Source: Zarea fungicola (Eukaryota; Ascomycota; Sordariomycetes; Hypocreales; Cordycipitaceae). Taken from it: DNA of 64,000 nucleotides. The notes under the pieces are model-generated. The model saw only the letters and a list, made by a program, of their open reading frames with translations, had not been told where the DNA came from and did not search any database. Location of the stretch: assembly GCA_900169235.1 (NCBI GenBank), contig FWCC01000232.1:122092-186091 (forward strand). Direction: 5' to 3'. This document shows positions 18,031 to 49,182 of this stretch, in pieces (the stretch's first letter is position 1; each line of letters begins with the position of its first letter). Position numbers and translations under genes: made by a program.

Positions 18031-18082
18031 GCGAACCAAGCCAACTGTTCAGCGAACCAGGCCGACTGTTCAGCGACCCAAG
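18031..18082. repeat. 21-bp tandem repeat, about 2.5 copies
   Basis: Two 21-bp units starting GCGAACCA, differing at three positions, are followed by a 10-bp partial copy. They lie about 200 bp upstream of the PD-(D/E)XK-like start codon, within its presumed promoter. The 555-bp interval 17848-18402 holds nothing else I can support. Confidence 0.6.
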
Positions 18083-26895: not shown

Positions 26896-28224
26896 TCAGC
26901 CTGGTACGATGAATGGTTCTATACATTGCAGCTTCTCAGAAGTTTCCGTGAGCTCTCGTTCTGCGTTGGACAGAGCTATAATACCCGCGCCTGCTTGCAA
27001 CCAATTTCGTTCGGGATCCTGAAATGCAGAGCGAAGAACCAATGATGCTTCAAGGTCATGTGGTCCATTCCAGAGGAGCACAGCGCCAGAGTATAGCTCC
27101 CGCGGGCGCTCTTCAAGTCGGTGTATGGCCTCGATAGCTTTCATTTTGGGTATGCCGGTAGCAGTAATAGAAGGAAAGAGAACGTCAAAGGCATCCCACA
27201 CATCTTTTTCGGATGACAGAACCCCGGTGACGGTAGAGCCCAGGTGCTGAACGTTGCCCCGTTCTCTAATAGACATGAAGTCTTTTACAGCCACCGTCCC
27301 CGGTATAGAGAACTGACTCAACTCCTGCATTGCCTCTTTTACCGAAATCGCATGCTCCTCAATTTCTTTTGGATCGCTAAGCAGTTCGTTGCGAAGTTGA
27401 TGTCGCTTAGCTTCACTGCCCGTATTCGATCGGGTCCCAGCTAGTGGCTCTGGTGTAACCGTGCCGTTTTCGACGGACATGACTAGCTCTGGACTAAACC
27501 CTGTAGCCCTGAAACCAAAATGACTGAAGAAAAACGTGCGTTTTGGGGTGTTTGCACATCTGCCGCGAAGTAGAGTCCCAACCATATCGATAGAACTCAG
27601 AATATCAATAGAACGTGACGCAATAACCTTTTGGTAAAGACCGTTATCAATTTCATCGAGTGCTTGTTGAACCATTGTAATAAAGGCTTCCTCATTTCTG
27701 GCTCTCTCAAGCTCATGGGAAAATTTGGATTCGAATTGGGGAAGAGGGTTTGACAAAGATGTCTTAATCAAGTCAAGGTCCTCGGTTGATCCGATACGTA
27801 ATAGAAGAGCATCGTGACGAACATCTATTTGCATCCGCGGAATCATGATGCTGACCAAGGGCCAAGTGCCTGGTGCAAATTCAATACCACGTATATAGGA
27901 CGCATAATTGAAACCAACATGGCCAAAGACCAAAGTAGCATCTAGACAGTGAGCCGCAATGAATTTTGCGACGATTTCTTTGATATTCCTATTGACAGTA
28001 ATAAATGAGCTGCCTGTATCTGTTTTAACTGTTGCCGATGTTCCAGTCGGATCGACCACAAGACTCGCCAGGTTGCCGACACCGACGTGCCATGTAGATT
28101 CACGTTCATAGGCGTAGCAATATTCATAAGCAAACGCTGTTAGTAGCTTGACTACGGCCTTGAGACTGCCTTGAGTTTGGCTATGCATAGTGATGCTCAG
28201 AGGCAAAGTGACAGTAGATGTCAT
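26896..28224 (-). CDS. Salicylate synthase (MbtI/Irp9/YbtS-type chorismate-utilising enzyme)
   Basis: A single exon, 442 residues from the ATG at 28224. It converts chorismate to salicylate via isochorismate in characterised relatives (mycobactin MbtI, yersiniabactin Irp9/YbtS). The C-terminal two thirds carry the family core almost unbroken: LYQKVIASRSIDI (the Lys near residue 199 is the expected general base), ATGFSPELVMSVENG, TPEPLAGTRSNTG, DPKEIEEHAISVKEAMQELS, DFMSIRERGNVQHLGSTVTG, LFPSITATGIPKMKAIEAIH, RPRELYSGAVLLWNG and LQAGAGIIALSNAERELTET followed by SEKL. The metal-ligand glutamates near the C-terminus are present. The match is closer to salicylate synthases than to anthranilate or PABA synthases. 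Absence of introns among intron-rich neighbours fits a bacterial origin, but is not proof. It is divergent from the methyltransferase gene. Confidence 0.88.
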   Translation of the reverse strand: MTSTVTLPLSITMHSQTQGSLKAVVKLLTAFAYEYCYAYERESTWHVGVGNLASLVVDPTGTSATVKTDTGSSFITVNRNIKEIVAKFIAAHCLDATLVFGHVGFNYASYIRGIEFAPGTWPLVSIMIPRMQIDVRHDALLLRIGSTEDLDLIKTSLSNPLPQFESKFSHELERARNEEAFITMVQQALDEIDNGLYQKVIASRSIDILSSIDMVGTLLRGRCANTPKRTFFFSHFGFRATGFSPELVMSVENGTVTPEPLAGTRSNTGSEAKRHQLRNELLSDPKEIEEHAISVKEAMQELSQFSIPGTVAVKDFMSIRERGNVQHLGSTVTGVLSSEKDVWDAFDVLFPSITATGIPKMKAIEAIHRLEERPRELYSGAVLLWNGPHDLEASLVLRSAFQDPERNWLQAGAGIIALSNAERELTETSEKLQCIEPFIVPG

Positions 28225-28840
28225 GATCAAATATTGGTGACTTTAGGCGTGATGACTTGGATGATCTTAAAACGGCTTCAAAAACTATGCTTTTCAACTT
28301 GTTTTGAAAATTGGGTTTATTTGATGTATTATATACTAACCGTTTACAGTGGTTCTACTACGTTTGCGTCTTCTGTAAGGCATTCCTTGCCGCGCAATGG
28401 AGCAAGCTCTGATGTCAACGCATAGCGCTTGCGGCCGCACATTCTTAATTGGCTTGGTTAATGAGAAATAATTGACGTAAAAAATTATGTATACCTCATC
28501 ATTCCACGGGGCAAACTCCGGATTCCTATGTGAAACCGGCAGATGTCACCTGATTGGCGCGGTCTCTGTCGGTACGGGAATGTTAAACAACGCTATGGTG
28601 AGATTTTGAGTTATAACGTCAGTGTAAAGTTGGAAAATATCTAATGGTAGGAATTTTGTTGAGAATTGTGTCATATATTTGTTCAAATGTGCATACCAGA
28701 TAAGTTGGCCTGAAGCCCGGCTCAACAGTCTCGAGATATGCGTAAAGATTTAAATAGACAACATCATGCATATGAACTCCATCGTATACAAGCCCTGAAT
28801 GGTCATCCTACATTGTTGCACTTTCTGCATAGTAAGAAAC
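28225..28840. promoter_or_regulatory. Bidirectional promoter, salicylate synthase / methyltransferase
   Basis: A 616-bp interval between divergent start codons (28224 minus, 28841 plus), suggesting joint control of the two genes. It contains AT-rich runs (for example near 28330-28345 and 28740-28760) and one GATA-type sequence (CAGATAAG) near 28700. No confident TATA box or transcription-factor site is claimed. No coding potential seen. Confidence 0.45.
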
Positions 28841-29879
28841 ATGTCTCGAAGTAGCAACTCAAGCGACAACTACGTCTTAGGTCGTGGAGCCGCAGAATCT
28901 GTTCGGTAAGCCTGTGGCGTCACCGTCTCTGAAACTTAGCTAGCTGAACTGTCCCAAGCTTGGACGCACAGCATCTCTTATGGAAAGCTTACCTTGGTTA
29001 TCTCCTGCACCCTTCAATTAAAGTGACTGAAAATTTCAAGATTGCGGAGATTGGTTGTGGTACCGCGTAAGTTCTCCTTTAATCCTTTTTGCTTCTACAT
29101 TCTCACAAAACTTAGTATGTGGCTTCTCGATCTTTCCCATCAGCTGCCTCCAACTGTCAAGCTCTATGGATTCGATGTATCAAGCAAACAGTACCCCGCC
29201 AAAGAGCTATGGCCCAAACGTTTATGCCTTCTGACCATGGATTCTCTGCAACCACCGCCAGCAGATTTGATGGGTCAGTTTGATGTAGTACATCTTCGCA
29301 TGTGGGCAAGTAATGTGACCCAAACGACTTTACCAGCACTTGTGTCTCATATTCGATGTCTTTTGAGTATTTACGTCCTGCACCATTTGCAATTCCATCT
29401 GCTAATGCTCAACAGAACCGGGCGGCTATCTTCAATGGGAAGAGGCCAACTTGACTAGACAAGTTGTGATGGGAGTGAAAGCGCAAGAGTTTGAGACACA
29501 AATTAACTCCCTATTCGAAGAAGCAGGTTTGGATTACAGGTATGCAGCTTGTCACTGATCTATAGGCAGTCATATCATTTACGCTAACCGTCTTCGTGAT
29601 AGCTGGGTTAATATTCTGCCAGAAATCTTGAAAGACGGCAAGTTTTCGATTTTAAAGCTGCAGGAGGATGTTTTGCCGCCCTCGCTTAGCCAGCTTGGCA
29701 CTAATACATACCTTTTGGCGCTACAAGGGATCATTGAAGGAATTGGATCGAGATTGGCGTTGTCAAAAGAGTCGACTTACCCACACGAAAAGGCTCTTTC
29801 TGAGCTGCTTGATAAACATACAGGTATAATCTACAACTGGGGACCAACATTCGTCTTGGCCCAATGTAGTCTTCCATAA
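28841..29879 (+). CDS. LaeA-like SAM-dependent methyltransferase
   Basis: Five exons: 28841-28905, 28959-29066, 29116-29366, 29416-29539, 29603-29879, coding 274 residues. The N-terminus NYVLGRGAAESVRLDAQHLL leads to the SAM-binding motif KIAEIGCGTAMWLLDLSHQL. Then come LYGFDVSSKQYPAKELWPKR, MGQFDVVHLRMWAS and LKPGGYLQWEEANL, which is the usual order of fungal LaeA/Tam-like class I methyltransferases in biosynthetic clusters. Length is normal. The first intron uses CCCAAG as acceptor; the earlier AG sites give stop codons. Likely an O-, N- or carboxyl-methyltransferase acting on the cluster product rather than a global regulator, judged from context only. Divergent from the salicylate synthase and convergent with the NRPS. 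Confidence 0.85.
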
Positions 29880-30401: not shown

Positions 30402-33400
30402 CTAGCCCATGGCACCAAGACCATGCACAGCAAGCCTTAACTTGCCATTAGAGTCAGCTCTAACGTCCGGAATTAGGGCGGATGGTGCACCCCAATCTGC
30501 ATCAGCATGCACATCCTCCAAAGTCTGCTCATCATCACTCGCCACTATCTGCACCATGACCTGCTCAAATTGTCGAAGAATGGCGTCCATGGTTTCTACA
30601 GCAAGAAGACTGCCATCAAAAGTAGTGTTGACAATGATGACATCTTGGGATGATTTGACACTAAATCGGAACGGCGAATGCATCGTAATACCAGTCCAGA
30701 GAAGCTCCATACCAATCCCGTCACCCCAAGAGTTCGTGATAAAGCTCGAACCGGCGGAGACGGTAACATAGATGGCAGCGTCGCATGCCGCCCTTGTGTC
30801 TTCAGTGAGATTTTTGATATTGTCCCAGCCGAGGTGTTCAAAATTAGCCATCACATTTAAATCCCGCTGGGAAGAATAAAGCAACTCTCGTATCTTCCGA
30901 CCGGTCGTTACATGGAAGCGATGGGGAATTTTCGTCATGGCCGGTGCAACCATTTCTTCGATACCCGGAAGTGGTAAGTTGCGGCCAGTCCGGTACTGCG
31001 AGAATACCACATCTTCAGATTGCAAATGCCGGCTAAATACAATAGCCATTGCAACCTCAGCCATAGTAGAGATTGTAATCTCGGACGTTTGGGCTTTTTG
31101 TATGCTAAACGATCGTGCAAGATTGACATTTGCCACTACATTGTGCGATGCAGGGACTACGCAAAATGGCTGGGTGGGCATGGATGACTTTGAACCTGCC
31201 AGATACGCTCGCCAAAATGACTCGGCGGGAGCTTGGTCCGCCAGAACAGTGTGTTTGATGAACTGATTGAATTTCAGTCCTTGGTTCGGCGAGGCTTCGT
31301 CTCGGAAGGCATGTTCCACGTCGGCGTATAACATAGGCACAGCTGTACCATCATAGCAGGCGTGAGATCCTGACCATACAAAAAGTCGCTTACCGCTATT
31401 CCCGTCATCTATAATGGCAAAGCGAGTAAGAAGATCTCCATAGCCAATGTGGTCCCCCTCATTTTTTTTAAGAAAGCTCTCTAGGGATGTTGCGGAATAC
31501 CATTCGAGCTTGCCTTTCATAACTACTTGGAAGTTTCTGCCATCGGAAGTTCGTACAATTCGTGTTCGCAGGACAGCATGCTGCAAAGCAACAGTATCCC
31601 ATGCGGCTTTAAATCTCACGAGATCTATACGCCGAGGTAGACGAAAGACGCATTGCAGAAAATACCTATTCTCTGGCGCTGCGAAGTAGTCCTGATGTGT
31701 GCTCGCAGGATACACATCTTCGATCTGCGCCTTGGAGAATTGAGTTTCCTCAAAAACTTTTAATAAAGCATCCTCAGAGACCAAAGAGTAGGGTTCGGTC
31801 AGCGGAAGTATTTCTGCAGCAGAGGTGAACAATGCCATCTCCGCTAAAACTGGATGCTGGGAGATCGTGGCCACAGTCAGGGATAAGCCTTTTGCACGAG
31901 CCGTGGAAACGAGCTTCATGGCAGCTATAGAGTCTCCTCCGTGGTGATAGAAATTGTCTTGCGCCTCAAAATGCGATCCCCCAAGGACAGCCTGCCAAAG
32001 GACTGACAATTGGAGCTCTAGCGCGGTCAACTGGCGCTGCACCTTTTCGCCAGTGAAACTCTCAAGCTCGGCTACGGATAACTCTGCAGCTATATTACGA
32101 AGTTTCTTCCTGTCTAGCTTGCCAGACACTGCAAATGGAAAGCTCTGAACAGGGATGAAAAATGTCGGTATTGCGTACGATGGAAGAACAAGAGACAGGG
32201 TTGCTGTTGCTTGCGTCGCGTGAGAGCGTAAAACTCTTTGCTCGCTTGAAGAAGTCATGACACGAGGCCCGTCCTGCTCCCAGTTGAGGTAGCCGGATTC
32301 CTCGACCATTCTCAGAAATGCCATCAGTGTAGGAGAGCCAGAGTTCGCTACTGGCGCCACGACCTCGACTATGACTTCCGTAGCAGCCGAAAAAGCCTTC
32401 TGAAGCTGGTGCTCTACCTCACCCATCTCCAAACGATGGCCCCGAATTTTCACTTGGTTGTCTTTTCTCCCCTCAAAACTCATGGTACCATCCTCATTGT
32501 ATTTAACCAAATCGCCAGTTCGATATAGACGGCCTTGTCGACCTGTGGATTCCATCCAGAGAGGGGGAGGTATGAAAGCTTGCTGGGTCTTCGCTGCGTC
32601 GTTTAAATAGCCACGACCCACGGTAGGACCCTCAATCAAAAGTTCACCAACAGCGCCGATGGGCATTAACTGGCCCGGATCATCCTGGTCGGCAATCCAT
32701 GCGCCGACAAAAGGCTTTCCCAAGTCACCAGGCCCGTGTTTTGATGAGCTATAATCCAGAGAAGTGATGGCCACCGCACACTCTGTAGGCCCATACATGG
32801 AATAGAGGCTGAGTTTGATTTTCCATTTGTTAATCAAATCCGCGGAAACGCTTTCGCCGCCAAGTATCACTCTTTCGAGTCCTTCTACATCTTGTAGCTC
32901 AATGTTCCTGAAAAGGGACGGTGTGAAGAAAGCACTGGTCACTTGCATAGCGGCTATAGAACCAGCGAGATTGTTCATTCTATCCCAGTCAGAAGGTATG
33001 CAGACGCATCCGCCAAAAAACAGCGTGTACATGATCTCAATGATGCATGCATCAAATGCATAGCTAATAAACTGTAGCATTCTTGGCCGCCGTTGTTCGA
33101 ATCCTATGGCTCTTCCACCCAGGATTGCGCTTGTGCATAGCTGTTCATGCTCGATTACGCAGCCCTTTGGCTGACCAGTACTTCCCGACGTGAAAATAAC
33201 GTATGCTGCGTTGCTTGGCGTCGCTTTTGTGATGGTTGCTGTTTCTGGGACATGGCTGGTTGTAGAGTCGTCAATTACCAGCACTGCTGGAATCATGTCC
33301 TCACAGAGCTGCGCATATTTCGGTGATGCGAGTATCAATCCGGCCCGAGTCTGCTTGACAATGTCGCAGAGGCGACTTTGCGGTTGGGATGGATCCAGGG

Positions 33401-33722
33401 ACACAAAAGCCCCTCCAGCTTTCAGGACAGCCAGCATAGACACAATTATCCACTTTGATTTCTCAAAACACAGAGGAACAAGAATTTCAGGACCTACACC
33501 CCGGGCGGCGAGACCGCATGCCAGGCGTGATGCGAGCGCGTCAAGCTCTCGATAGCTCAAATCGCCGTCCCACGCACAAACTGCTGGCTGATTTGGCTGC
33601 TCCAGGACGCGACTTTGAATCAAGTCATGCGCGAGGGCGCTGACCGCCTTTGGAACATTGCTGTTCCAGCGCAGTATTTGCTGCAAATCAGCTGAACTGG
33701 TGAGTGACTGCTTTTCCGCCAT
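30402..33722 (-). CDS. Single-module NRPS, A-T-C (terminal condensation-like domain)
   Basis: Single exon, 1106 residues from ATG at 33722. Adenylation domain about 35-540: AYVIFTSGSTGQPKGCVIEH (A3), FDACIIEI with the amino-acid-binding Asp near residue 224, SLYSMYGPTECAVA (A5), YRTGDLVKYNEDG (A7), KIRGHRLEMGEVE (A8) and SGKLDRKKL with the A10 Lys near 535. Carrier domain about 565-635 with FYHHGGDSIAAMKL (phosphopantetheine Ser near 598). Condensation-like domain about 665-1080 with WSGSHACYDGTAVPMLYAD. The SHxxxD form resembles the fungal terminal CT domains that release or cyclise products; the Tyr expected 15 residues after the Asp is Phe. There is no N-terminal condensation domain, so the enzyme loads one amino acid. 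The Asp in A4 argues for an alpha-amino acid rather than salicylate as substrate. Neighbouring genes suggest pairing with salicylate or an opine step; this is inference. Confidence 0.9.
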   Translation of the reverse strand: MAEKQSLTSSADLQQILRWNSNVPKAVSALAHDLIQSRVLEQPNQPAVCAWDGDLSYRELDALASRLACGLAARGVGPEILVPLCFEKSKWIIVSMLAVLKAGGAFVSLDPSQPQSRLCDIVKQTRAGLILASPKYAQLCEDMIPAVLVIDDSTTSHVPETATITKATPSNAAYVIFTSGSTGQPKGCVIEHEQLCTSAILGGRAIGFEQRRPRMLQFISYAFDACIIEIMYTLFFGGCVCIPSDWDRMNNLAGSIAAMQVTSAFFTPSLFRNIELQDVEGLERVILGGESVSADLINKWKIKLSLYSMYGPTECAVAITSLDYSSSKHGPGDLGKPFVGAWIADQDDPGQLMPIGAVGELLIEGPTVGRGYLNDAAKTQQAFIPPPLWMESTGRQGRLYRTGDLVKYNEDGTMSFEGRKDNQVKIRGHRLEMGEVEHQLQKAFSAATEVIVEVVAPVANSGSPTLMAFLRMVEESGYLNWEQDGPRVMTSSSEQRVLRSHATQATATLSLVLPSYAIPTFFIPVQSFPFAVSGKLDRKKLRNIAAELSVAELESFTGEKVQRQLTALELQLSVLWQAVLGGSHFEAQDNFYHHGGDSIAAMKLVSTARAKGLSLTVATISQHPVLAEMALFTSAAEILPLTEPYSLVSEDALLKVFEETQFSKAQIEDVYPASTHQDYFAAPENRYFLQCVFRLPRRIDLVRFKAAWDTVALQHAVLRTRIVRTSDGRNFQVVMKGKLEWYSATSLESFLKKNEGDHIGYGDLLTRFAIIDDGNSGKRLFVWSGSHACYDGTAVPMLYADVEHAFRDEASPNQGLKFNQFIKHTVLADQAPAESFWRAYLAGSKSSMPTQPFCVVPASHNVVANVNLARSFSIQKAQTSEITISTMAEVAMAIVFSRHLQSEDVVFSQYRTGRNLPLPGIEEMVAPAMTKIPHRFHVTTGRKIRELLYSSQRDLNVMANFEHLGWDNIKNLTEDTRAACDAAIYVTVSAGSSFITNSWGDGIGMELLWTGITMHSPFRFSVKSSQDVIIVNTTFDGSLLAVETMDAILRQFEQVMVQIVASDDEQTLEDVHADADWGAPSALIPDVRADSNGKLRLAVHGLGAMG

Positions 33723-34386
33723 CGTGTGCGTTGAGGACGCTTAGTTGGTAGAGACATCTGCTTTAGCATTGGAATTTGTCGCGAAGCACACTTCAGCTGT
33801 TAAGTGCCGTGATTCACTGAAAATGAAAATAGCTCTTGCATTGAACTATGCAGCGCAGTGGAGGCTGGTGGATAGGTGTAAGCAAGGCTGCGTTGCACGT
33901 TGACCCGACAGGGGTGGGGGGTGAGGCTATGACAACCACACCCAACAACGGCAAGTAATCATGCCTTACGAAATAACTCAATTTAACGACGAAAATTTCC
34001 ACCAGTGGGCTCTATGTCAGTTTAGGAAAGTCTCACTGGTAGCGTCATCGGTGTTCGGAGCCTTGCTTGAACGGTATGCGTTGATGCAAAGCAGGCTGCA
34101 TGGTGTGCGCGGTCTCGACCATTTTGCATGCATATTGTTTCCCAAATTTGCCGCCAAAAATGCCGAACAAGGGCTGGCGAGTGATCCAGGTGGAACGATT
34201 GATAATACGATGTACATTGACTCCGGGAAGTGGATATCATTTGGTTCATAAACCATCTCTGTGAAGCCTCTCCCTACCAAGGTCAACCGATCTCCCACTT
34301 CCTTCGAGGCTATTCTGCTCCTGTCTTTTCTTCCATCTATTCGTTTTTTACTTACTCCATCTCATAAACCTCTTGCGGCAAGTAAT
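33723..34386. promoter_or_regulatory. Divergent promoter, NRPS / TauD-type dioxygenase
   Basis: A 664-bp interval between divergent starts (33722 minus, 34387 plus). A plus-strand frame at 33961-34251 and antisense partners overlap here but lack any domain; I treat them as chance. A pyrimidine-rich run (34290-34370) precedes the dioxygenase ATG, as is common in fungal 5' leaders. Confidence 0.4.
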
Positions 34387-35644
34387 ATGTCTCCCTCTAT
34401 GGTAGAGACACCTTCTGCTACAGAGCTCCCAGTAGCCAAGCAGGCGCCGGAACAGGGAGCAATAGGAAACTACAAGGAGCACCTACCCATCACGTATGAC
34501 AAAGATGCTGAGGAGGGTAGAAAGGGCTACGCTGCAGCAAAGGTATGTGTTTAGTTGAGTTTCAAATCTGCGGAATACCCTCAAAAGAAATTTTAAGCTG
34601 ACGTGCAAAGTATCCAAACTACCTGCCAACCTGGGACCATTCTCAGAAATTCCCACCGCTACAGCCCTTTCCACACCTTGAGCGTGGAAAGGATGCCGAT
34701 ACTTTGTATCCAGATTTACTTGCCAATGGTGCACAGGTGACACACCTCACTCCCACCATCGGCACGGAAGTCGAGGGCATTCAGATCAGCAGGCTCTCTC
34801 CTGCCGGTAAGGACCAACTCGCTCGATATGTGGCAGAGCGAAAGGTGGTGGCTTTTCGCAAGCAAGACTTTGCGTCACTTGCTATCCCTGAGGCACTCGA
34901 TTTTGTTCGCTACTTTGGCCCCCTTCACATCCATCCCACTTCCGGGTCCCCAGCTGGCCATCCCGAAATCCACCTGGTGCATCGGGCCGCAGGCGACACA
35001 AGTGCCAGCAAGTTCCTGGAGACGCGTACCAGTTCCGTTGCGTGGCATTCCGACGTTACGTACGAAAGACAGCCACCTGGCATAGCCTTTTTGTACATTC
35101 TCGAGAAGCCGGAGACGGGAGGTGACACGCTCTTTGCCAACACGGTTGAGGCGTATAAGCGTCTGAGTCCGCTACTCCAGGAGCGCCTGCACGGGCTAGA
35201 AGCTGTGCATTCAGGCCTTGAGCAAGCCAATGCCAGCCTTTCGAGGGGAGGAGTACTGCGTCGTGAGCCGGTTCAGTCCGTGCACCCGATAGTTCGAACC
35301 CATCCAGCGACAGGCGAAAAGGCTCTATTTATTAACCCACAATGTTCGTCTCCGTTGAAACCCCGAAAGCTGCAAACGATGCTAACAAGTCTCAAGCCAC
35401 ACGAGAAATTGTAGGTATGAAGAAGGAGGAAAGTGACATGCTCCTGTCCTTTCTTTTCAATCACATTGCTCTTGGTGCGGATTTTCACTCTCGAGTTAAA
35501 TGGGAGGAGGACACAGTCGTCGTCTGGGATAACCGTGTAACGCAGCACACCGCGCTGATTGACTGGACAGATGGACAGAGGCGACACATTGCTCGTATTA
35601 TGCCCTTGGCAGAAAAGCCGTACGAGACACCATTTAGCATTTAA
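34387..35644 (+). CDS. TauD/TfdA-type Fe(II)/2-oxoglutarate-dependent dioxygenase
   Basis: Three exons: 34387-34542, 34611-35343, 35397-35644, coding 378 residues. Motifs: YPDLLANGAQVTHLTPTIGT, VAERKVVAFRKQDF, VAWHSDVTYERQPPGIAFLY (iron ligands H and D), TGGDTLFANTVEAYKRLSP, VRTHPATGEKALFINPQSTR, GMKKEESDMLLSFLFNHIAL and VVWDNRVTQHTALIDW (distal His ligand), then RRHIARI (2-oxoglutarate-binding Arg). This is a full fungal TauD-family protein of normal length. The second intron has a weaker GTTCGT donor but a perfect GCTAAC branch site, and removing it restores the family reading frame. In clusters such enzymes hydroxylate amino acids or taurine-like acids; here it may hydroxylate the amino-acid part of the product. 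Confidence 0.88.
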
Positions 35645-35895
35645 AAGCCTAGAAATAGTAAATGAAGCTCTTTAGAAAAATCAATTTATGTTTTACAAGC
35701 GCAAGTACTGCTAATTCTGCTTGGAAATGCAACTTTTCCCATCTTCGCCGCTGAAATTTAACAAGCACTGCCAGAATGTCTTTTTTCTTTTCGCAAAATT
35801 GATGCTCCAGTCGCCAATGTTGCTTTGCTTTCATTGTTTGAAGTGTGCAAGATGTTGAACCATAATTAAATTGGTGCCAGTTCATTTTCTATATG

Positions 35896-37788
35896 TCAGC
35901 TGCCTTGCTTCAAAGCCCGCCATTTTCTACCATATTTTAAGATTGCCACGGGACCAAGCAAACTAAGCCCAAATATCAATGCCAAAGTAGTATAAGCCCA
36001 GCTTGTTCCCATAGCATGAGACATTGGTTCTATCGTGGCGCTTACAACTGCAGCTAACAGGCATTGACCAATATTTCTTGCCGCTGCTGCAACAGCGAAC
36101 TGGCCGGGGCTGCATGTCTAGTTAGCAAAGCACAGTGTACGTCCCTGACGGCGTAGTTACTCACTGAATATCAGCCATCAGCACAATGGAAACCTGTGAG
36201 GTCGCGCTAACACCATATCCGACAATAAATAGGAACACAAGCGGACCTGCGATTGACATGCCTCGTTGGAGCGTCCAGGAATAACCGACAACACCAACAA
36301 CGACGAGAAACATGAGAGGAAGCCCAACTTGGAGTCGGGCTAACTCGAGAGGGAGTTTGGAATTATCAATTTGAACCTGCTTTTCAAGCTTAATTCCAAG
36401 GTTTCTCGCATGGCGACGGTAATTCCAATCCAGAAGTGCCCCAGTGGCAAAGCTAGACACGATGGTTCCAGCACCTACAGGTAGGGCCACGAGCGAAATC
36501 TGAGTGTTGGAGAAGCCGTAGAGATCGTAAAGAATCTTGGACATGTCGGTGAATATTGCATAGTAGCATAAATTCGCTGTAGTTTGTCAGCTCGGCGCCT
36601 TCGTGACAAAATTTCCAACATGGGGGCTTACCAAGACTCAGTGTTAGCACTAAAAGTGCAGAGGCAGGGTTGGCGAGTATGCGAAGTGTCCAAAGAGGAT
36701 TGGGGACAGTAAGACGGAATCTTTTGTGTAGATCTGATTTCTTTTCATGATCAATAGCGATGCCGTTCAAACGCCTGTTTCTGAATCGGATCGAATCAGT
36801 CACATTACTGCAGAGCAGCGGCGGCGGAATCGATCCGTCGTCGACAATCTGACGGCACGTCTCTGGAAGGAAGAGCACAAGCGGGACAAGGGTAACGACA
36901 GATATAATCACGAGAAACCAGAATATCCTACAAGAGATTAGCTGCTTGATACTTGTATGCAGGAGTAGCTTTGGTATGTTACCAGTGCCAACTGCATGTT
37001 GGCTGATTACGCCACCAAGGACAGGACTGAGCGAGGGACCAAGGGTCGCAGCCACAGAGGAATATGCAAGATATTCACCTCGCTCCGCGGAAACGATGCA
37101 GTCACCAACCAGACTTTTCTCGGTTAGTGTGACAAATGGGACAAAGGGGCAAATGAAATGACCTACGCTTGGCTCATAATGCCACAGCTGCCTGCCGATT
37201 GCAGCATTCGCAAGAAGAGCAAGGCATAGTAGTTGTTCTGCAAGGCAAGCCCAACATTTGCAATGATTGAGATGATGAAGCAGACAATATAAGCCAGTCT
37301 TCTTCCAGCAGTTTCAGAGAAACCCGCGATGATTGTCGGCGCGATACCTTGGACGATCTGTCCTACAGTCAGTAACAGAAAGGAAAGCAAAATCCGCCAG
37401 TTCCAACGCACCAAAAATGTCGTCACCGAAAGATTAACCTGTGCGTTAGAGATACCAATATCATGAGCAATCTATCACCGAGTTAGAGGCGCACGGAGAC
37501 AGAACGCGCTATGCATACCTGATTTACGGCTGGGAAGTAAATGCTGCTTCCCATGAAGGACAGCAAGCCCATGAAGGAAGCAGACAGGATGATTGCGCGC
37601 TTCTGCAGCCCAGTGAAAACTGAGTACGGCCGAGCTTGCTCAGCATCTGCCTGCATGACCGGCGTTGTAGGCGTGGACAGCGCCATAGCGTCTTGGACAC
37701 CCTGGTCAGGTTTACTGCCGGTTACCTCTGCGCACTCGCCGGAGGTCCCAGTCTTTGCAGGGCTAACGCCATCCTTCTCTGGCAGCAT
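35896..37788 (-). CDS. DHA1-type MFS transporter with apparent 1-nt frameshift
   Basis: Seven exons on the minus strand: 37788-37519, 37471-37412, 37357-37167, 37113-36983, 36927-36632, 36576-36165, 36109-35896. The sequence follows the fungal DHA1 plan: LLSFMGSSIYFPAVNQIAHD, VTTFLIVQGIAPTIIAGFSE with TAGRRLAYIV (motif A), FLRMLQSAGSCGIMSQALVG, GPSLSPVLGGVISQHA, IFWFLVIISVVTLVPLVLFL with PETCRQIV, and IHPGQFAVAAAARNIGQCLL. Exon lengths total 1574, one short of a multiple of three. The family motif expected before IFWFL is GWxxIFWFL, and near 36991 the DNA reads GCAGTTGGCAC where an extra G would give it. Retaining the 55-bp intron 36928-36982 instead keeps the frame open. The protein is related to the MFS at 47560. 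It is likely the cluster's exporter, if functional. Confidence 0.78.
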
Positions 37789-38997
37789 GGTAGAGCCGGT
37801 AGTGCTCGTGGTGTTGTAGTCCTAAATTGGTAGCATTCCGGGGCTGAAAATTGCACTTGGTGCGAAAAAAGGCTGTCTTGTATGCTATCGCGTATTCATA
37901 ATGATGCCCGAGGGTAAGGAAAGTCGCAAATGTAGGGGTGAGACCGCCTCGGAGACTGAGGCACGCGGAAAGCAGGCGGAAAACGGTCCGTCCCGTTATC
38001 GTATTGCGCGAACGTGTGTGGCCTTGCTGATCTCTTCTACCATATCCCTGCACAGACCCTACCACAAGGCTCCGCTATGCTAGATAACTGGTTGACTACA
38101 GCCAAGAAACGGATCGCAGATGCCGTATAGCCGGCGCGAGCATCTATATCTGAGTCACTTCATTTTAATCAGCGCTATCACGTAACCGAAGATTTGTCCG
38201 GCGCCGAGCCTGATTGGTACCTACCCAATCGACTTTCAACTTCTGCAGCCTTGTATCGTATATAGACAAATCGTTGGTGTCCATTCTTTGTTTTGTCTTT
38301 ATCCACAATTAAGAGGGCCAGGGTCTAATATATTAATTTCTGTACCTGGGAACAAAATTCCAGAAAAAATCACAACTTCGGCGCGGCTTGACGCCATTTC
38401 TCTTTTGTACAATCTTGCGCCATGGATGTTCAGCCCCCAACTATCAACGACCCACCGTCGCGCGTTCTACCACTTGCCTGAAAAGGATAGTTTCTTGAAA
38501 ACTCTATCCAGTGAAACGTGCATAATCATGGTAAAACCCTTTATAGATTTCAAATAATCGAGGGGGGTGGTTATTGGGCTTACGGTGTAGAGATTGGCGA
38601 CGGAATCGGAGGAGGCCTTTTCCAGGCATGAAATGAGTCCCCATTTACGTGCAGAACATGGGCAAGAGCCTCGTTCCTAGATGAATGGCAATGAATAGGC
38701 AAAAGCCTGATCGTTCAGACAGAAGGTCAGCATCATTGGACGGGACTTTTGTGCAATGTCTGAATATCTGGTTCATTCTACGCTGGGCCGCGTCGACAGT
38801 CTAGAAGCGAGCCGTCACTTTGAAGCGAGCCGTCACTTTGAAGCGAGCCTGGCCGGGTGAATAATTGTTTTTTTAACATGTCTGTTCTTTCCATACCTCA
38901 CCCAGTAATAGATCCCTTTTTGATACATCTATTGATCTATTTCTAGCAAAGGGCTGGTTTAAACACTGTACTCAATTGGTCAGTTTTATCAACGCAT
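37789..38997. promoter_or_regulatory. Divergent promoter region, MFS / opine dehydrogenase
   Basis: About 1.2 kb between divergent starts (37788 minus, 38998 plus). It contains the 18-bp tandem repeat at 38804-38849. Around 38290-38560 the plus strand has an open frame without a domain, which I do not accept. No RNA gene seen. Confidence 0.4.
38804..38849. repeat. 18-bp tandem repeat, 2.5 copies
   Basis: Two exact 18-bp units (GAAGCGAGCCGTCACTTT) followed by the first 10 bases of a third. It lies about 150-195 bp upstream of the opine dehydrogenase ATG, a position where repeated binding sites for a regulator would be plausible. Whether it binds anything is unknown. Confidence 0.8.
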
Positions 38998-40200
38998 ATG
39001 GTGCATGCCAGTACTCCAGAAATTAACAACAGACTACAGATTTTGGACGGAATGAAAGTCGGAATAGTTGGTGTTGGCCATGTTGGATGTGCCCTTGCGG
39101 TAGATTTGGAGAGTCGCGATGTGCAGACAATCCTTTGGGCAGCTTCTGCCCATCGCAGCATCTTCAATCGACTATCCAATCAAGGCTACCTGGAAGCTTC
39201 CGAAGCAATGAGTGGTCGATTCTACCCAGCCTTGACAACCAACTTCGATGAGCTCGTGCAATCAACAGAGGTCATCATTGTGGCCGTCCCGACGACTGGA
39301 CACCAGGCCATCTTGACAGAGCTTGCGAAACACGATTTGAGTCGTCACATCGTCGTCTTTATCACTGGAAACTTTGTCGGGCCCGTCGCTGCCACTTCGA
39401 TCAATGCTCAAGCAATCATCTGCACTTCCAGATCTCCCTATACGTCGAGAACAGAAGAGACTGTAACAGGAGAGATTCGAATACGGTTCAATGGCATCAA
39501 GAGGCGCCTCGAGATTGCAGGTTTCGGCAACATTGACTGGTCTGTCCGTGATACGCTGAATCGAATCTTTTCCATCCCACTAGTATGGTACTCCAACACA
39601 CTGAAACTTGACTTGGCCACCAACCACGGCGTTGTCCATCCGCCGACTATGCTTTGCAACATTGGTGCAATAAATACCAAGGCCAATCTGTTCTTTTATC
39701 GCGATTGTATGACTGCCGAAGTTTGCAGTCTCATGCTAGCTGCAGACAAAGAACGCTTGGCGGTCGCTGCAGCTCTCGGGTTTACAGACCTGGAAGATAT
39801 CCTCACAATGTTCAACACCGATTATGGCACTGAATTCACAGATCTAGCCGCATTCATGCAGCAGGTAGATTCTCTCAACAAACGGCCGGGCCTTCCAACT
39901 AGCCTCATGGCTCGGCAGATTTCTCAAGACATTCCTTTCTGGTGCGTGCCTGTAGCCAGTTTAGGAAAGGCGCTGAGCGTGCCAACGCCAGTCATTGATG
40001 GGTGGATTCTTTCAAGCATATGTATCAACCAGGTCGACTATCGAGGAGTTGGAAGGACGCTGAAAACATTTGGAATCAGAAGTGATGCCTCTGTCGAGGA
40101 AATTCTTCGAGCTTTCAGGGCAACAGATGACTTGAATCAAGATTCCTCGCACACAGACCTCGATTATTTGGCATCACTAGACATCAAGTTGCGACTATAA
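38998..40200 (+). CDS. Octopine/nopaline (opine) dehydrogenase family protein
   Basis: Single exon, 400 residues from ATG at 38998. N-terminal Rossmann domain: MKVGIVGVGHVGCALAVDLE (GxGxxG) and EVIIVAVPTTGHQAILTELA, then FITGNFVGPVAATSI. The C-terminal all-alpha opine dehydrogenase domain has SRSPYTSRTE and RFNGIKRRLEIAG, LKLDLATNHGVVHPPTMLCN (the His of the HPP motif near residue 214 is the expected catalytic base), FFYRDCMTAEVC, AADKERLAVAAALGF and DIPFWCVPVASLGKALSVPT. Family members reductively join the amino group of an amino acid or polyamine-like intermediate to a 2-oxo acid using NAD(P)H, as in octopine and the bacterial opine metallophores staphylopine and pseudopaline. It is intact and within the biosynthetic cluster. 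The substrate pair here is not known. Confidence 0.85.
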   Translation: MVHASTPEINNRLQILDGMKVGIVGVGHVGCALAVDLESRDVQTILWAASAHRSIFNRLSNQGYLEASEAMSGRFYPALTTNFDELVQSTEVIIVAVPTTGHQAILTELAKHDLSRHIVVFITGNFVGPVAATSINAQAIICTSRSPYTSRTEETVTGEIRIRFNGIKRRLEIAGFGNIDWSVRDTLNRIFSIPLVWYSNTLKLDLATNHGVVHPPTMLCNIGAINTKANLFFYRDCMTAEVCSLMLAADKERLAVAAALGFTDLEDILTMFNTDYGTEFTDLAAFMQQVDSLNKRPGLPTSLMARQISQDIPFWCVPVASLGKALSVPTPVIDGWILSSICINQVDYRGVGRTLKTFGIRSDASVEEILRAFRATDDLNQDSSHTDLDYLASLDIKLRL

Positions 40201-40875: not shown

Positions 40876-42624
40876 TCAAAGTTGCAGCTCTGAGATCATA
40901 CGCTCCGCTGCCCAAGCGCCAACCAGCAACGCCGTCGACACGGGATGAGAATTCGGGAGCACAGGAGCCACACTCAAATCAGCAATGCGGAGATTCTCCA
41001 GTCCGTGAACCCGAAAGGACGGATCGACTACGCTATTACCACCTTCATCCTGCAAAGATCCCATGCGAGCGGTACAACAGGGATGCCAGAGGGTGCCGAT
41101 GGTGTCGCGCACATATGCAATAATGTCTTCATCGCTGTCCGACTTTGGACGCACAATTGGCGCTACGATGTGCTCTGAGAGCGATTTGGTGTTTTCCACA
41201 AAGGCGCGCATTCTTCGCACGTAGGAAACGGCGCTGGCCAGGTCGAGGCCGGCGTCGTCGTTGAGAAGTTGATAATCGATGGCGGGTGCGTCTTGCCATT
41301 TTGACGATGCGAGCTCTATGCTGCCGGTGGACTGGGTTGCAAGGTGGACCGCTCCAATCGTGAGGTTGGGGCTCGTTGTCGGTGCACCGGGCGTCCAGTT
41401 GGTCACGCCGAAGAGTTCCAGCGTTGGCGTCTCTTTTCGCTGGAGGAAACGCTGTTCCTCATACGGAATTCCAGAAAATCCCACGTGTTTCATCATGGTT
41501 TCGTCGCGGTCAAAGCCAACGACAAAGTTCATAAAGTCTTGGTTCGGATGAGGTACTACCGAGCCCGGGATAGGCTGCCCAGCAAGCTCTTCGTCGACTT
41601 GCCAGGAGAGAAACACGACCAAGTGGTCTTTTAGATATTGTCCAACGCCAGGCATCTCGGCTGTCAAGGAGATGCCCCTATCGGCAAGATGCTGCACCGG
41701 GCCAACGCCGGATAGCAGGAGCAGTTTCGGGGTATTGATAGCACCAGCAGACAGGACAACACAGCGGTTGGCGACAAATATCTGCTCGCCACCATTGACC
41801 TCTGCTGCCTTGGCTGTGTTTCCTTCAAATATGACCCTAGTAGCTTCGAGGCCAGTCTTGATTGTCAAATTGGATGGCGGGTCGGACAAAAATGCGTGAG
41901 TCGGGGTAGTTCGTAGAGCACCACCAGTGGACATGGATGGCAGTATACCAAATCCAAGTGGATTTCCTGAAGTCATATCTGCATTCATCAGGAACCCGTG
42001 CTCCACTGCACCATCTAGGATGGCTGCGTCTCCCTTTTTCAAGTATGCGCTGAATTCAACATTGAATGGACCGCCAGTTCTGTCGCTGACGTCGTTGGCG
42101 AATTCACTCGCTCGGCGATCCGTCATACCCTTAACAGGGTGTGAAGGGGTTCCATTGAGGCTAGTCATATTGTATTTGACGAAGCCGTCAATTAGTGGTT
42201 TTGAATTTTCCCAGTTAAAGAAGGGATCTCCGACACGAGCTGCCCATTCGTTGAGGCCATCTCTGTTTGGGTGTGTCCAGCAGCAAAAATTGATGTTTGA
42301 CGTTCCTCCAAGTGCTTTGCCTCGGCTGGCATCGACGGAGCGGCCGCCGACATTGGGCTGAGGTGTCGATTTGTAGCTCCAGTTGAACTCGGGCTGGGTT
42401 ATGAATGCATTCCATCGATTTGACATGACCAAATCATCTTGAGTTGGCTGCTGATCACCGGCCTCGAGAAGGAGGATGGAGGGCTTGGATGAGGCATTCG
42501 CGAGTCGAGATGCCAGTAAGGCTCCGGCTGGACCACCTGCGTAGTGTCAGTAAGCACAATGGGCCTTGGGAACCTGGCCGCACATACTGCCAACAACGAT
42601 AATGTCATATGGATCCATTTCCAT
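40876..42624 (-). CDS. GMC-family FAD oxidoreductase
   Basis: Two exons on the minus strand, 42624-42588 and 42536-40876, coding 565 residues. The 51-bp intron splits the FAD-binding motif; splicing gives MEMDPYDIIVVGSGPAGALL followed by ASRL, then ILLLEAG. Further hallmarks: GKALGGTSNINFCCWTHPN, VVLSAGAINTPKLLLLSGVG, EMPGVGQYLKDHL, GTLWHPCCTARMG (catalytic His region) and HPVSTALLVGAWAAERMI. This is a complete glucose-methanol-choline oxidoreductase similar to fungal aryl-alcohol oxidases and choline-type dehydrogenases. There is no signal peptide, so it is probably intracellular. In this setting it may oxidise an alcohol or carbon-nitrogen bond of the cluster product; the substrate cannot be read from sequence. 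Confidence 0.9.
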
Positions 42625-44118: not shown

Positions 44119-45603
44119 CTATTCTTCTGCTTGGATATTAGTACAATCACGGGCGATTCTTCGACTCAGTATACGTACAATTAGAAATTTTCTCGTCTCA
44201 TCGGCATCACCTTCCATACTTTTCAGAAGCCTCAGGAATGGGTCTGTCTCTAGAAGTGTGTCCGCACTCATTTTGGAGATGCGATCCAAGTTCTTCCTAG
44301 CGCGTCTGTCGATGAAATTGATAAATTTCTCACGCCGAATCTCTGCGTAGGCGTCAAGTATGTCTTCGTCAGCCTTGCCCTCATAATATCCGATGAGGCA
44401 ATCAGCAAGCCCTTCCACGTCCAAGACCGCAGCCATGCAGCCGTATCCCCCAAAGGGGTTGCATACGTGGGCAGCGTCGCGGGCCAGCAATACCCTACCG
44501 ACACGCATTTTCTCTACGCACCGATTGTGCATTCGAAATTGATCGGCCTGGGTCACTTCATATTGACTGGGGTCTGGGTGGCCGGGGAGCATCTTCTTGA
44601 AAGCAATGTCCCGGCGCCTTATATATCCTTCGTTCGAAAGGCTTGCCACCGAGTCGCCATACGTCACACGCCATAGCTCGCCCTCTTGTCCTTTGGCCTT
44701 GCCTCTTTTTGCGATGAGACCCCAGAATTCGTCGTCGATCATGTAATTGCCACCGTCCCAGCCATGTTCCTTGAATCCTTTGTAATACACCTTCTCACAG
44801 TTAGTTGATACCGACACTGCTTCAGGCTTGAGAGAGAATAGCGCCAGAGATACAAGACAAAACGCATTAAAGTGCAAATATTGCACGTACATTCTGAACA
44901 AATAGGGGACTGTCAAAAGTCTCACCGGGCCAATTTCTTTGAAACAGAGTTTTCCGTACGCTGCTCTGCGCGCCATCACACCCGATGATGTAGTCGGCCG
45001 TGAAGGTAGTTGTACTTTTGATGCCCGCACTCACCTCAACTGTCACGGTTGCTGTTCTGGAATCCTGTTTCAAATCAATAACCTTGTGATTGAACAGTAA
45101 AGTTATGAACTCGGAATACTTCTCGCGGCAGTGGCGTAGCATAATCTGCAAAATTTCGTTCAACGGCAAAATCACCATGCGATCTTCGTCGTCTTTTACC
45201 ACGGAAAGGTCAATCCCCGTAAGCAGCTCCCCAGTTTGAACGCTACGCCAGCAGATTGACGGGAAGTGCGTGATGCTTTTGGCTCTCATATCACCAAGAA
45301 GACCCGCTCGCCTAAATACCCGTGTTGCTGGAACACCATATTGCGTTGCGCGCAGTCTCTCATCTACCTGATCCCACGACTCCAGCACGGTCGAATGGAT
45401 ACGGTTCCGGGCGAGCAGAATAGAGAGAAGCAGCCCTGCTGGACCAGCTCCAACGATCAAAACCTGTATTGTCAGTTATATTAATATCTGGTTTGTATAA
45501 TCCGACGATATCTAACCTTTTCAAACGGATTTGGCCTTTGCTGAGATGTGCCATTTTGCAACTTGGAATCTTGAACATCTCCCATATTGTTCTGCGGATT
45601 CAT
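44119..45603 (-). CDS. PHBH-fold FAD-dependent aromatic monooxygenase
   Basis: Three exons on the minus strand: 45603-45517, 45463-44891, 44790-44119, coding 443 residues. N-terminus: NPFEKVLIVGAGPAGLLLSI with the dinucleotide motif. Then LLARNRIHSTVLESWDQVDE, YIIGCDGAQSSVRKTLFQ (DG motif), QNVYYKGFKEHGWDGGNYMI and VLLARDAAHVCNPFGGYGCM (GD-type motif with A for G). The order and size fit class A flavin monooxygenases of the FAD_binding_3 type, which hydroxylate phenols and salicylate-like rings. With a salicylate synthase in the same cluster, a ring hydroxylation (for example towards a catechol or gentisate-like moiety) is an attractive guess. The second intron is long for this window (100 bp). 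Several ATGs lie near the start; I use the first, 45603 (MNPQNNMGD). Confidence 0.87.
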
Positions 45604-47559
45604 GCTACCCCCGCACACAAAAAAAGCAAACCCGGTTCAAAGAGGGGAGACGATAAACCAATCAGGCATTCAATGATTCGTGATGTACTAAAGTGGTCCA
45701 ATCACACGATCTTTTGGCAGGGCACTGGAATCCGGATGTGTTATATATTCCAGGGCCTTTATTATCGGACTATTCGGCCACTCAGCACTAGGACAACGTC
45801 GGGCATGTTTATCGACTTAAAGGCGTTATCGCCACAAATCTTTTTTTAGAAACTGGTGGAGCAATTGCCTAACACAATAAATGCTCGCTTATAAATTAGT
45901 TTTCAGCATTGAGGAGCGAATTTGCCCTATGCGTTTTGAAAAACAACCCACACTCTATAGATAATCTGCTAAATGACTCAGATATTCCAACTAGTGTGCA
46001 TTTAAGTCAACCAGAAGCCAGTATCTACTCATGGCCTTTACAATAGCATTACTTCCTTCGCCTGCTCGCTGATGACACCCGCATGGCTATCTAGTTGCGA
46101 GAAAGACGGCTTTGCGAAGATGGTCTGCATCGGCGATGGACCTTGTCGAATCCGCCCTGAGGCTTGGTGGGCGTGTGCTGCTATCACTATTCGCTGAGTG
46201 TGAGGCTGGTGTTCTACACGACGTATGGGGGACTGAATTGCTGGCAGCAGCGTCTTCAGACGTTGGCGTATGAGGTAATGTGGTTACTGGGGTCAAGACA
46301 TGGCGCTTCTCGGCAGCGGGTCGACAGGAAAGTGGCCGGTGGTTGATGCATCAAGCCGTGGGGGATTTCTGTTGTTTTCAATTAGGCGATTGTTGCAACG
46401 AACTACAAGGCTATGGAACGAGTCAAAGCTACCAATGAATCCTCCTCGAGGCGGGGGAGCGAGCAAGCCAGGTTCACAGCTTACACACTAGAATTTATCA
46501 GCCCCCAACTCTGACCAGTCAACTTCCGTAATACCTGAGCACCCAGTGGATGCCCAGCTGCTGCAGGCTGAGAATGTTCCGTGAATACCAGGCCGGGTCC
46601 ACCACACAATAGGGGCGGGCGATGCGACCAAAATTGGGATGGCACAACGGATACTAACGATAATATGACGTCTTATTTTTCCTCTTTCATATAGAAGATA
46701 TATGATCTGTCGCCTGCGCCTCGCCTCCAATATAAACAACACATTGTATAATGAAAGTGTTGCCAAAGTTGTGACTCGAAAGGTTCTCCCTGGGAGAGGG
46801 GAGAGGTGGCCAGCCTCGTTCCAGAAAGAGCAGTTCTAGGCAGCGAGTTTGTAGATCACAGTCTCAGGGTCAGCATGCCTTCACTCCCATCTTATCCCCG
46901 TCGAAGCCCCTTGCAACCCCTGTCACTAGTTGCCGATTTGCCGATCTACCAAATTTGGCGGCGCAGCCTTACTCCAATGCTACCGTGACAGGTTTGATTA
47001 CGCCGCCCATTACCTTGTAGCCCCTGCCGTGCACGTATGAGTAGATACGGCGGTAGGTGAAAGGCAGTACCTAGTACGTATGTGTATGCCTCGCTACTCG
47101 CCACTGCATGCACATGCTGTCGGCCAGACAGAAGGGGGAACACTCTGGGACGTAGCCCAGAGTGTGACACATACATTGCATAAAGCGCCCTTAAATAAAG
47201 CGTGTAGGGATTTTTGATTGTACTATGTGGGCTGTTGTGTGGGCGCACATGGTGCGTGCAGACAGCCTGCTTCCCCAGCACTGAAAACTTCACGCTCAAC
47301 AGTCTGCATGCAATGCCAATTGCAACAATGAAATTGCGTATTGAAGGAGTGGAAAGAACAAGAAAAAATGACGGTTTCTCGCTCCCCTGTTACTTGTCCC
47401 TCTCTACCCGTTAAACCCAAGCCGGTGGCAGGAACCAACATTGTCAGGTCCATTGTGAAAACAGGCCTGGAAATCATTCGCTAGTGTGTTGCTTGCACAT
47501 CCTCCAGCTCTATCGTCTCTTCGCCGCAGAATCTGCCAAGTCGTCTAGCCACATTCATC
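45604..47559. other. Intergenic interval between FAD monooxygenase and MFS transporter
   Basis: About 2 kb upstream of both divergent genes. Around 46100-46270 the plus strand reads as a short protein-like stretch (ALRLGGRVLLSLFAECEAGV) before stops, possibly a decayed exon, but I cannot name a family. A plus-strand run just before 47560 is CT-rich, typical of a fungal 5' leader. Nothing else supported. Confidence 0.35.
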
Positions 47560-49182
47560 ATGGCCAACACCGACTCTGTGCGCCCAGAAGAACCTACCCG
47601 GAGCATGACGGAAAATGGTGTAAAGCCGCAGCATGAGCAGCAGCAACAGCAGCAGCAACAACAACAACAGTCGTCCGATCCGCCTCCAGCTGCGCATACA
47701 CTTCTTGACGACGACAATGGCAACACCCCACCACAACCGCACACAGTCTTCAATCCCTGGGAGAAGCGCTTCATTGTCCTAATAGCCTCGACGGCGGGAT
47801 TCTTTTCTCCGATAAGCGCCAACATTTACTTTCCAGCCCTCGACACTCTGTCTCGCGAGTACCATGTCACGCCAACTCTCATCAACCTGACAGTCACCGT
47901 CTACATGCTCTTCCAGGGCCTTGCCCCGTCCATAACCGGACCCCTTTCTGACAGCATCGGCCGTCGCCCTGTCTACCTCGCCTGCTTCATCATGTACATC
48001 GGTGCCAACATTGGCCTGGCCCTGCAGCACCATTTCACGGCGCTCATCGTCCTGCGCTGCCTGCAGAGCACTGGCAGCAGCGCGACCGTCGCCCTGGCCA
48101 ACGCCGTCGTTTCCGACGTTGCCACTGCCGCCGAGCGCGGGACCTACATTGCCTTCGCTTCGCTCGGTGGTGTTCTCGGAATTGCTCTTGGCCCCATCCT
48201 CGGCGGCATCCTCAGCCAGTATCTTGGTTGGCGGTCGATATTCTGGTTCCTCGTCATCGCCGCCGGCGTCGTCTGTCTCCTCATACTGCTCATCCTGCCC
48301 GAAACGGCCCGCGCTGTTGTCGGAAATGGCTCGACTGTCCCTTCGAAATGGAGCCTTTGCTTGTGGGACATGCTCCCTCACGTTCGACACAAGAGAGTAC
48401 ATGTTCGAGCGTCTTCTGGCCCTGCCTCCCGCATGGCAAAGGAGTCAAAGTTTATCAATCCATTCTTTACACTAAGGATTTGTGCCGACAAGGAGGCAAC
48501 TGTCGTTCTGCTGGCCAACGGGCTCGTGTTTTCTGGCTACTACGCCGTCGCCAGTGCCATCCCATCCCAGTTCTCCAACATCTACGACTTTAATGCTCTC
48601 AAGATTGGTCTGTCGTTTATCCCGATTGGCGTCGCTAGCGCCATATCAACAATGGTCGTTGGCCGAGCTGTCGACTGGAACTTTGCCCGTCACTCGCGAC
48701 GTCTCGGAATCAACGTTGACGAGGCCAAGGCCCGGAACCGTGAAATGGGCGACTTTCCCATTGAGAGGGTTCGCTGCGAGATTGCGCTTCCCATCCTGGT
48801 ACTGGCCAGCGTCTCTACCATCACGTACGGCTGGGTTCTTGACTTCCAGACTAAGGTGGCTGGCCCTCTGGTCATGCTCTTCTTCATCGGCTTCTGCGCC
48901 AACGGTTTCTTCACGATATTGAGTGTTCTTATGGTTGACGTCTATCCTCAAGCACCAGCTACGGCAACCGCGGCCAACAATCTCATCAGATGCTGGCTCG
49001 GCGCCGGCGCGTCCGTAGTAATCATCCCGATGATCAATACCATGTCGTCAGGCTGGGCGTATACCCTTATTGCTCTGCTTTACCTCATGATGGTACCCCT
49101 TCTCTGGGTCATTATGCGCTTTGGGCCAACATGGAGAGCAGAGCGTCTTGCTGTCGAGAAACTTTCTCAGCATCAATTTTAA
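47560..49182 (+). CDS. DHA1-type MFS multidrug/metabolite transporter
   Basis: Single exon, 540 residues from the ATG at 47560 in a TCATCATGGCC context. A long N-terminal cytosolic tail contains a polyglutamine run (about residues 25-37). The core follows fungal DHA1 proteins: ISANIYFPALDTLSREYHVT, SITGPLSDSIGRRPVYLACF (motif A), LRCLQSTGSSATVALANAVV, ALGPILGGILSQYLGWRSIF and WFLVIAAGVVCLLILLILPE. The second half has IPSQFSNIYDFNALKIGLSF, DWNFARHSRRLGINVDEAK and FFTILSVLMVDVYPQAPATA. It is clearly homologous to the transporter at 35896-37788 but intronless and intact. It is likely the exporter of the cluster product or a self-resistance pump, and marks the probable right edge of the cluster. 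Confidence 0.92.
   Translation: MANTDSVRPEEPTRSMTENGVKPQHEQQQQQQQQQQQSSDPPPAAHTLLDDDNGNTPPQPHTVFNPWEKRFIVLIASTAGFFSPISANIYFPALDTLSREYHVTPTLINLTVTVYMLFQGLAPSITGPLSDSIGRRPVYLACFIMYIGANIGLALQHHFTALIVLRCLQSTGSSATVALANAVVSDVATAAERGTYIAFASLGGVLGIALGPILGGILSQYLGWRSIFWFLVIAAGVVCLLILLILPETARAVVGNGSTVPSKWSLCLWDMLPHVRHKRVHVRASSGPASRMAKESKFINPFFTLRICADKEATVVLLANGLVFSGYYAVASAIPSQFSNIYDFNALKIGLSFIPIGVASAISTMVVGRAVDWNFARHSRRLGINVDEAKARNREMGDFPIERVRCEIALPILVLASVSTITYGWVLDFQTKVAGPLVMLFFIGFCANGFFTILSVLMVDVYPQAPATATAANNLIRCWLGAGASVVIIPMINTMSSGWAYTLIALLYLMMVPLLWVIMRFGPTWRAERLAVEKLSQHQF

Follow-up and report, generated by a model that had tools for sequence, protein, structure and literature searches.

The final 64 kb of a 186,091-base contig (C340) of Zarea fungicola, hereafter the window, may carry a single fungal biosynthetic cluster, about 26 kb long and so far uncharacterised, in which a salicylate synthase (SS), a nonribosomal peptide synthetase (NRPS) and an opine dehydrogenase (ODH) stand together with tailoring enzymes, transporters and a regulator and would make a product built from salicylate and an amino acid. 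We consider the case for a single cluster of this kind to be evenly balanced. An initial annotation had listed nine genes between 26.9 and 49.2 kb, and all nine lie where it placed them, with their types borne out by Pfam and NCBIfam. These nine gene models in a row are all of biosynthetic or transport type, which supports the one-cluster reading. A Zn2Cys6 regulator gene (22.7 to 24.9 kb) adjoins the nine just outside the span it covered and had been missed there; this factor is the likely pathway regulator. Gene identities, gene models, domain order and the kept catalytic residues are established, and the ten genes and the divergent intergenic regions between them, as defined by the gene models, are as follows.

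22721..24895, minus strand: Zn2Cys6 transcription factor (Zn_clus 38.2 and Fungal_trans 73.6 bits on two pieces; ATG at 24895; middle exons approximate)
26896..28224, minus strand: SS (intronless, 442 aa; TIGR03494)
28225..28840, unstranded: divergent intergenic region, SS/methyltransferase
28841..29879, plus strand: S-adenosylmethionine (SAM) methyltransferase (five exons, in frame at GT-AG introns; Methyltransf_12, Methyltransf_25 and Methyltransf_23 on the hand-spliced model)
30402..33722, minus strand: one-module NRPS, A-T-C (intronless, 1106 aa; AMP-binding 214.6, PP-binding 33.8, Condensation 63.5 bits)
33723..34398, unstranded: divergent intergenic region, NRPS/TauD
34399..35644, plus strand: TauD-type Fe(II)/2-oxoglutarate dioxygenase (three exons; PF02668 149.1 bits on the main exon)
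35896..37788, minus strand: major facilitator superfamily (MFS) transporter 1, MFS1 (six exons that join in frame across GT-AG introns; spliced model, PF07690 120.8 bits)
37789..38997, unstranded: divergent intergenic region, MFS1/ODH
38998..40200, plus strand: ODH, CENDH-like (start at 38998 or 39052; PF02317)
40876..42618, minus strand: GMC flavin oxidoreductase (two exons; GMC_oxred_N 99.9, GMC_oxred_C 101.8 bits)
44119..45463, minus strand: group A FAD monooxygenase (FAD_binding_3 on both exons, which join in frame across intron 44794-44890; a small first exon was not found, last codons approximate)
47560..49182, plus strand: MFS transporter 2, MFS2 (PF07690 168.9 bits)

Models of the intron-bearing genes came from a small gene finder, trained on this genome, and were then checked on the DNA. 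The finder missed MFS1 and the methyltransferase and split the FAD monooxygenase, and these three were read by hand. Their exon pieces differ in frame but join in frame at GT-AG introns, so the idea that they are broken genes was rejected; none of the nine is visibly broken in the models checked on the DNA.

The SS is a predicted converter of chorismate to salicylate. It passed the TIGR03494 equivalog cut-off (496.8 versus 325.15 bits), and in the NCBIfam scan the isochorismate synthase and TrpE (anthranilate synthase) models shown for it each fell below their own cut-offs. Its best solved relatives were 5jy9 ('Putative salicylate synthetase', 364.7 bits) and Irp9 (2fn0, 363.3 bits), and all seven catalytic positions (K, E, H, Y, R, E, E), which we take to be those of Irp9 and MbtI, are kept. 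Homologues were compared among the matches listed (120 of 821). Within these 120 proteins, the window's included, the K and the E are present in 119 (one gap each) and the other five positions in all. Irp9 and YbtS are full-length homologues that have all seven positions in common with the window enzyme, but the bacterial rows stand apart from the fungal ones, and the window lacks a yersiniabactin-type assembly line. In a midpoint-rooted tree of 47 hand-chosen proteins from the 120, the 12 bacterial rows form one group (98/98), while the window SS and one metagenome relative (87%) are sister to a clade of Aspergillus alliaceus, Paecilomyces, Penicillium antarcticum and Hortaea (100/97 for both together). 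Fungal SS in itself is already known, since many of the listed homologues carry the names Aspergillus, Penicillium, Fusarium or Metarhizium. A salicylate synthetase gene has been described on an accessory chromosome of Colletotrichum, in a paper that also cites a thesis on MaSalS of Metarhizium (PMC12842837).

The NRPS consists of adenylation (A), thiolation (T) and condensation (C) domains only, in A-T-C order. The ten-residue code of its A domain is DAIFIGMVAK, and six orthologues among the matches listed (P0179-P0184, 69-82% identical over the aligned parts) follow DA[IL]F[IV]G[MAIV]VAK, with Asp235 kept in all seven enzymes. Asp235 binds the alpha-amino group of the A-domain substrate, and aryl-acid A domains normally lack it. 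By contrast, P0205 (Aspergillus westerdijkiae) and P0210 (A. cretensis), presumably ochratoxin synthetases, have TVCWTGSWCK with Thr at 235 in the first A domain and DAIWCMAVLK with Asp in the second, and the fusarinine C synthase P0254 has DVDHGGAVGK. Because Asp235 is kept in the window enzyme and its six listed orthologues, salicylate was rejected as the A-domain substrate, which is probably an alpha-amino acid, either neutral or N-substituted.

In the C domain, the motif SHACYDGTA retains both His and Asp of xHxxxD, as do five of the six listed orthologues; for the sixth (P0179), this stretch is missing from the public model. AneB, ThmA, FlvI and DrcB have the A-T-C architecture in common with the window NRPS (AneB is 1078 aa by chimera numbering), although a terpene cyclase is absent from the window's gene models. 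Exactly these two residues, His and Asp, are essential in the AneB motif, whereas its first residue (Q) is dispensable and the S801A variant is still active (PMC10720950). The first His of the motif is replaced in both enzymes, and the window NRPS has Ala where the AneB motif ends in Ser. In AneB and ThmA an alcohol accepts the amino acid from the T domain, and SubK is predicted to act likewise with benzoate, nicotinate or N-formylvaline (PMC13107220). Given the A-T-C order, the kept C-motif residues and these precedents, the window NRPS is most likely a stand-alone aminoacyl transferase.

The ODH matched PF02317 with 113.7 bits (cut-off 30). Its fold is closest to that of N-(1-carboxyethyl)norvaline dehydrogenase (CENDH, 1bg6), which judged by its name acts on norvaline and is 22-23% identical to the window enzyme; staphylopine and pseudopaline dehydrogenases are more distant. 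Among the 57 listed proteins, the window's included, the His of the His-Asp dyad is present in 57 and the Asp in 56 (one is unaligned there). The enzyme would probably use NAD(P)H for the reductive coupling of an amino acid, through its nitrogen, to an alpha-keto acid. In TNHGVVHP (39622-39639, ODH residues 209-214), an Asn that precedes the catalytic His by five residues occurs in nine of the 57, namely the window ODH and its eight closest relatives, and the other listed ODHs have Ile (47) or Val (1) at this position. This Asn is a possible substrate-site signature. The closest known systems are CENDH and octopine dehydrogenase. Roles in metal and plant-interaction chemistry have been proposed for fungal ODHs, and in the sections of the open-access papers compared here none was tied to a peptide synthetase. 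The same genome holds a second intact-looking ODH (L027:5382-6446, on contig C385), with 40% identity to the window ODH and 61% to P0130, and a third, more distant one (C280:93355-94482).

The neighbourhood of SS and ODH is more than chance would predict, since the whole genome (43.1 Mb, 456 contigs) has three chorismate-binding and three Octopine_DH matches, and simple arithmetic from these counts puts the chance that any of the three ODHs falls within about 11 kb of the SS at about 0.002. An NRPS near them is less telling because the genome is rich in NRPSs, with 78 condensation-domain matches and four NRPS open frames of 4,493-6,993 codons. The three divergent pairs proposed earlier, SS/methyltransferase, NRPS/TauD and MFS1/ODH, are confirmed by the gene models; the FAD monooxygenase and MFS2, some 2 kb apart, form a fourth. 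The divergent partners may share promoters.

We also looked at linkage in relatives, judged from identical contig sizes in protein listings, in which the size column gives the longest contig of each protein cluster only. A single 31,754-base contig is given as the source of the window SS, NRPS and ODH. Orthologues of the NRPS and ODH share an exact contig size in three further sources: two metagenomic ones (33,329 and 11,696) and 1,092,287 (Ustulina deusta in both lists). Three of the six listed NRPS orthologues thus share a contig size with a listed ODH, and P0181 lies on a short contig (7445). The pair recurs, and its tie to SS is seen, among the matches listed, only in the window. A metagenomic SS (87%, contig 2263) and ODH (88%, contig 12180) may come from one close relative.

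Among the tailoring enzymes, the FAD monooxygenase has PnpA (188.1 bits), presumably a 4-nitrophenol hydroxylase, as its closest relative, followed by HspB (145.1 bits), so a phenolic substrate is likely. The TauD protein has the HxD and distal H ligands and matched taurine dioxygenase structures with 126.7 bits, and the GMC enzyme resembles the structures of alcohol oxidase, choline oxidase and patulin synthase. MFS2 found its best NCBIfam match in the Bcr/CflA efflux subfamily (138.5 bits, below the cut-off of 200.9) and is probably of the drug:H+ antiporter type. It also carries 11 consecutive glutamines near its N-terminus (47638-47670).

We propose a pathway for the ten genes in which the substrates, the order of the steps, their service to one product and the product itself are conjectural. 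SS would convert chorismate to salicylate, whose ring would probably be decorated by the phenol-type FAD monooxygenase and the methyltransferase. The A domain of the NRPS would activate a neutral (or N-substituted) alpha-amino acid, which the T domain would hold, salicylate probably not being loaded, and the C domain, like those of AneB and ThmA, would transfer the T-bound amino acid to a small acceptor with a free hydroxyl or amine. Before or after this step, the CENDH-like ODH would probably join the amino acid nitrogen to an alpha-keto acid. The TauD and GMC enzymes would oxidise the product, the two MFS transporters would export it, and the neighbouring Zn2Cys6 factor would switch the cluster on. 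A more specific version, which we rate as somewhat unlikely, is a salicylate-opine hybrid, in which the CENDH-type ODH would make an N-carboxyalkyl amino acid that the one-module NRPS would couple to a salicylate-derived ring; the NRPS and ODH would then be a transferable core with differing aromatic partners across fungi.

Several results weigh against a single cluster. No SS from the three NRPS-ODH contigs was found among the matches listed, where an SS orthologue as close as those of the NRPS and ODH would be expected; SS may therefore serve another product than the NRPS and ODH, and may be a recent or optional part. Two of the six listed NRPS orthologues (Zarea fungicola, contig size 28860; Akanthomyces muscarius, 5386820) match no listed ODH contig size, and for the A-domain code no characterised twin turned up in the sequences compared. 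Finally, words shared upstream of the genes do not exceed the genome background. Six 9-mers were common to at least three of the seven upstream regions, against 1.7 expected from Markov shuffles, but the observed counts were reached in 58, 55, 122 and 346 of 500 draws from 34 control upstream regions of the same genome. One such word, CCATTTTGCA, has three exact copies in the window, at 34119, 42739 and 45551, upstream of NRPS/TauD, GMC and FAD monooxygenase, the last of which overlaps a possible start codon; another, ATGCGTTGA, has three, at 28415, 34076 and 38989, one per divergent region. Shared words being equally frequent in the controls, both were rejected as a shared promoter motif.

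A rival reading, likewise somewhat unlikely, is that two units lie side by side: a conserved NRPS-ODH pathway, perhaps with TauD and MFS, and a separate unit of SS and methyltransferase, perhaps with the FAD monooxygenase, that makes free or simply modified salicylate. The contig sizes shared by NRPS and ODH without a listed SS are what two units would give, fungal SS is widespread in genera that have no listed orthologue of the window NRPS, and SS and the methyltransferase form their own divergent pair beside the regulator. However, no unrelated gene model separates the two units, and the phenol-type FAD monooxygenase lies beyond the ODH, on the far side. Because of that position, aromatic tailoring may bracket the NRPS-ODH core. 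A reading in which salicylate or hydroxysalicylate is loaded by the A domain itself and then handed by the C domain to an amine or alcohol, in the way predicted for SubK with benzoate or nicotinate, draws on the SubK precedent and on a cluster type whose figure legend names both SS and salicylate hydroxylase (PMC13107220). We regard it as very improbable in view of Asp235, kept in seven of seven enzymes and missing from the first domain of P0205 and P0210, a comparison that covers these enzymes and not SubK.

The initial annotation had proposed a salicyl-amino-acid opine-like metallophore, with a non-chelating product considered equally possible. Its SS and NRPS enzyme types stand, on the equivalog score, residues and domains, but the metallophore is unsupported, and we think it unlikely. 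A phenol, carboxylates and a secondary amine would, on chemical grounds, chelate metal. In Pseudogymnoascus destructans, copper shortage induces a fungal ODH gene that lies in a copper-responsive cluster (CRC) together with a metal reductase (PMC12113139). The PCA cluster of Trichoderma harzianum likewise has an ODH, beside metal reductase and copper transporter genes (PMC12855858). The window shares a fungal ODH with both of these systems; the CRC of P. destructans also has an MFS gene and a SAM enzyme, and methylation by PCA6 is discussed by the authors of the PCA work. Unlike the window, both clusters have a metal reductase (PCA also a copper transporter) and, as described in the parts of these papers compared here, no NRPS (PMC12113139, PMC12855858).

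The searches point away from such a product. The window ODH belongs to PF02317 and is closest to CENDH. Nicotianamine synthase (PF03059) had no match in the genome, with a control matched in Methanosarcina acetivorans, though an intron-broken gene could be missed. Ferric_reduct and Ctr, with 20 and 6 matches in the genome, had none on the contig of the window. Staph_opine_DH (PF10100) had no match, but its control gave none either. MFS2, the one transporter for which the comparison was made, has efflux pumps as its nearest matches. The metallophore is thus no more than a guess, and we rejected it as unsupported. Elsewhere in the genome, copper-transporter and ferric-reductase matches lie about 1.3 kb apart (C118:17692-19725), like the metal pair of the PCA cluster; none of the three ODH matches is on C118.

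Among the closest published systems are the subrubine (sub) clusters of Aspergillus terreus and Penicillium. SubK is a one-module A-T-C NRPS that serves as an acyl transferase, like that of the window, and the legend of the cluster figure names SS and salicylate hydroxylase, with SS outside the enzymes given as conserved across all three sub clusters (PMC13107220). No ODH is mentioned, and no word beginning 'opine' occurs in the text (PMC13107220). Among 30 window frames and gene models scanned with Pfam, which left some short open reading frames aside, there was no tryptophan decarboxylase (TDC), DMATS or ene-reductase. Searches of an open-access library turned up no paper that joins a fungal SS, NRPS and ODH. 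Subscription papers fell mostly outside the search, so this negative is weak evidence of novelty. The claim that the cluster is undescribed may hold for the combination of the three genes, but published relatives exist in the subrubine and copper-linked ODH clusters.

Outward from the regulator on the left lie a small DUF1330 gene (20714-21019), which adjoins the Zn2Cys6 gene and could be a cluster member, and then a predicted five-exon gene of 836 codons (16225-19134) without any Pfam match. On the right, the region from 49200 to 57200, between the cluster and the next predicted genes, is gene-poor, with four open frames of at least 100 codons, all without a Pfam match; beyond it are genes for a phosphatidylethanolamine-binding protein (57469), a short-chain dehydrogenase (58138) and an NmrA-like protein (62629). 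A partial Pfam scan of the flanks, covering ten open frames of at least 100 codons at 6.5-15.1 kb and 49.9-56.4 kb, gave no domains.

This case cautions against predicting a metallophore merely from the names of genes. The SS indicates which labelled precursor to feed, and the recurring NRPS-ODH pair would offer a defined system for learning what fungal opine dehydrogenases make.

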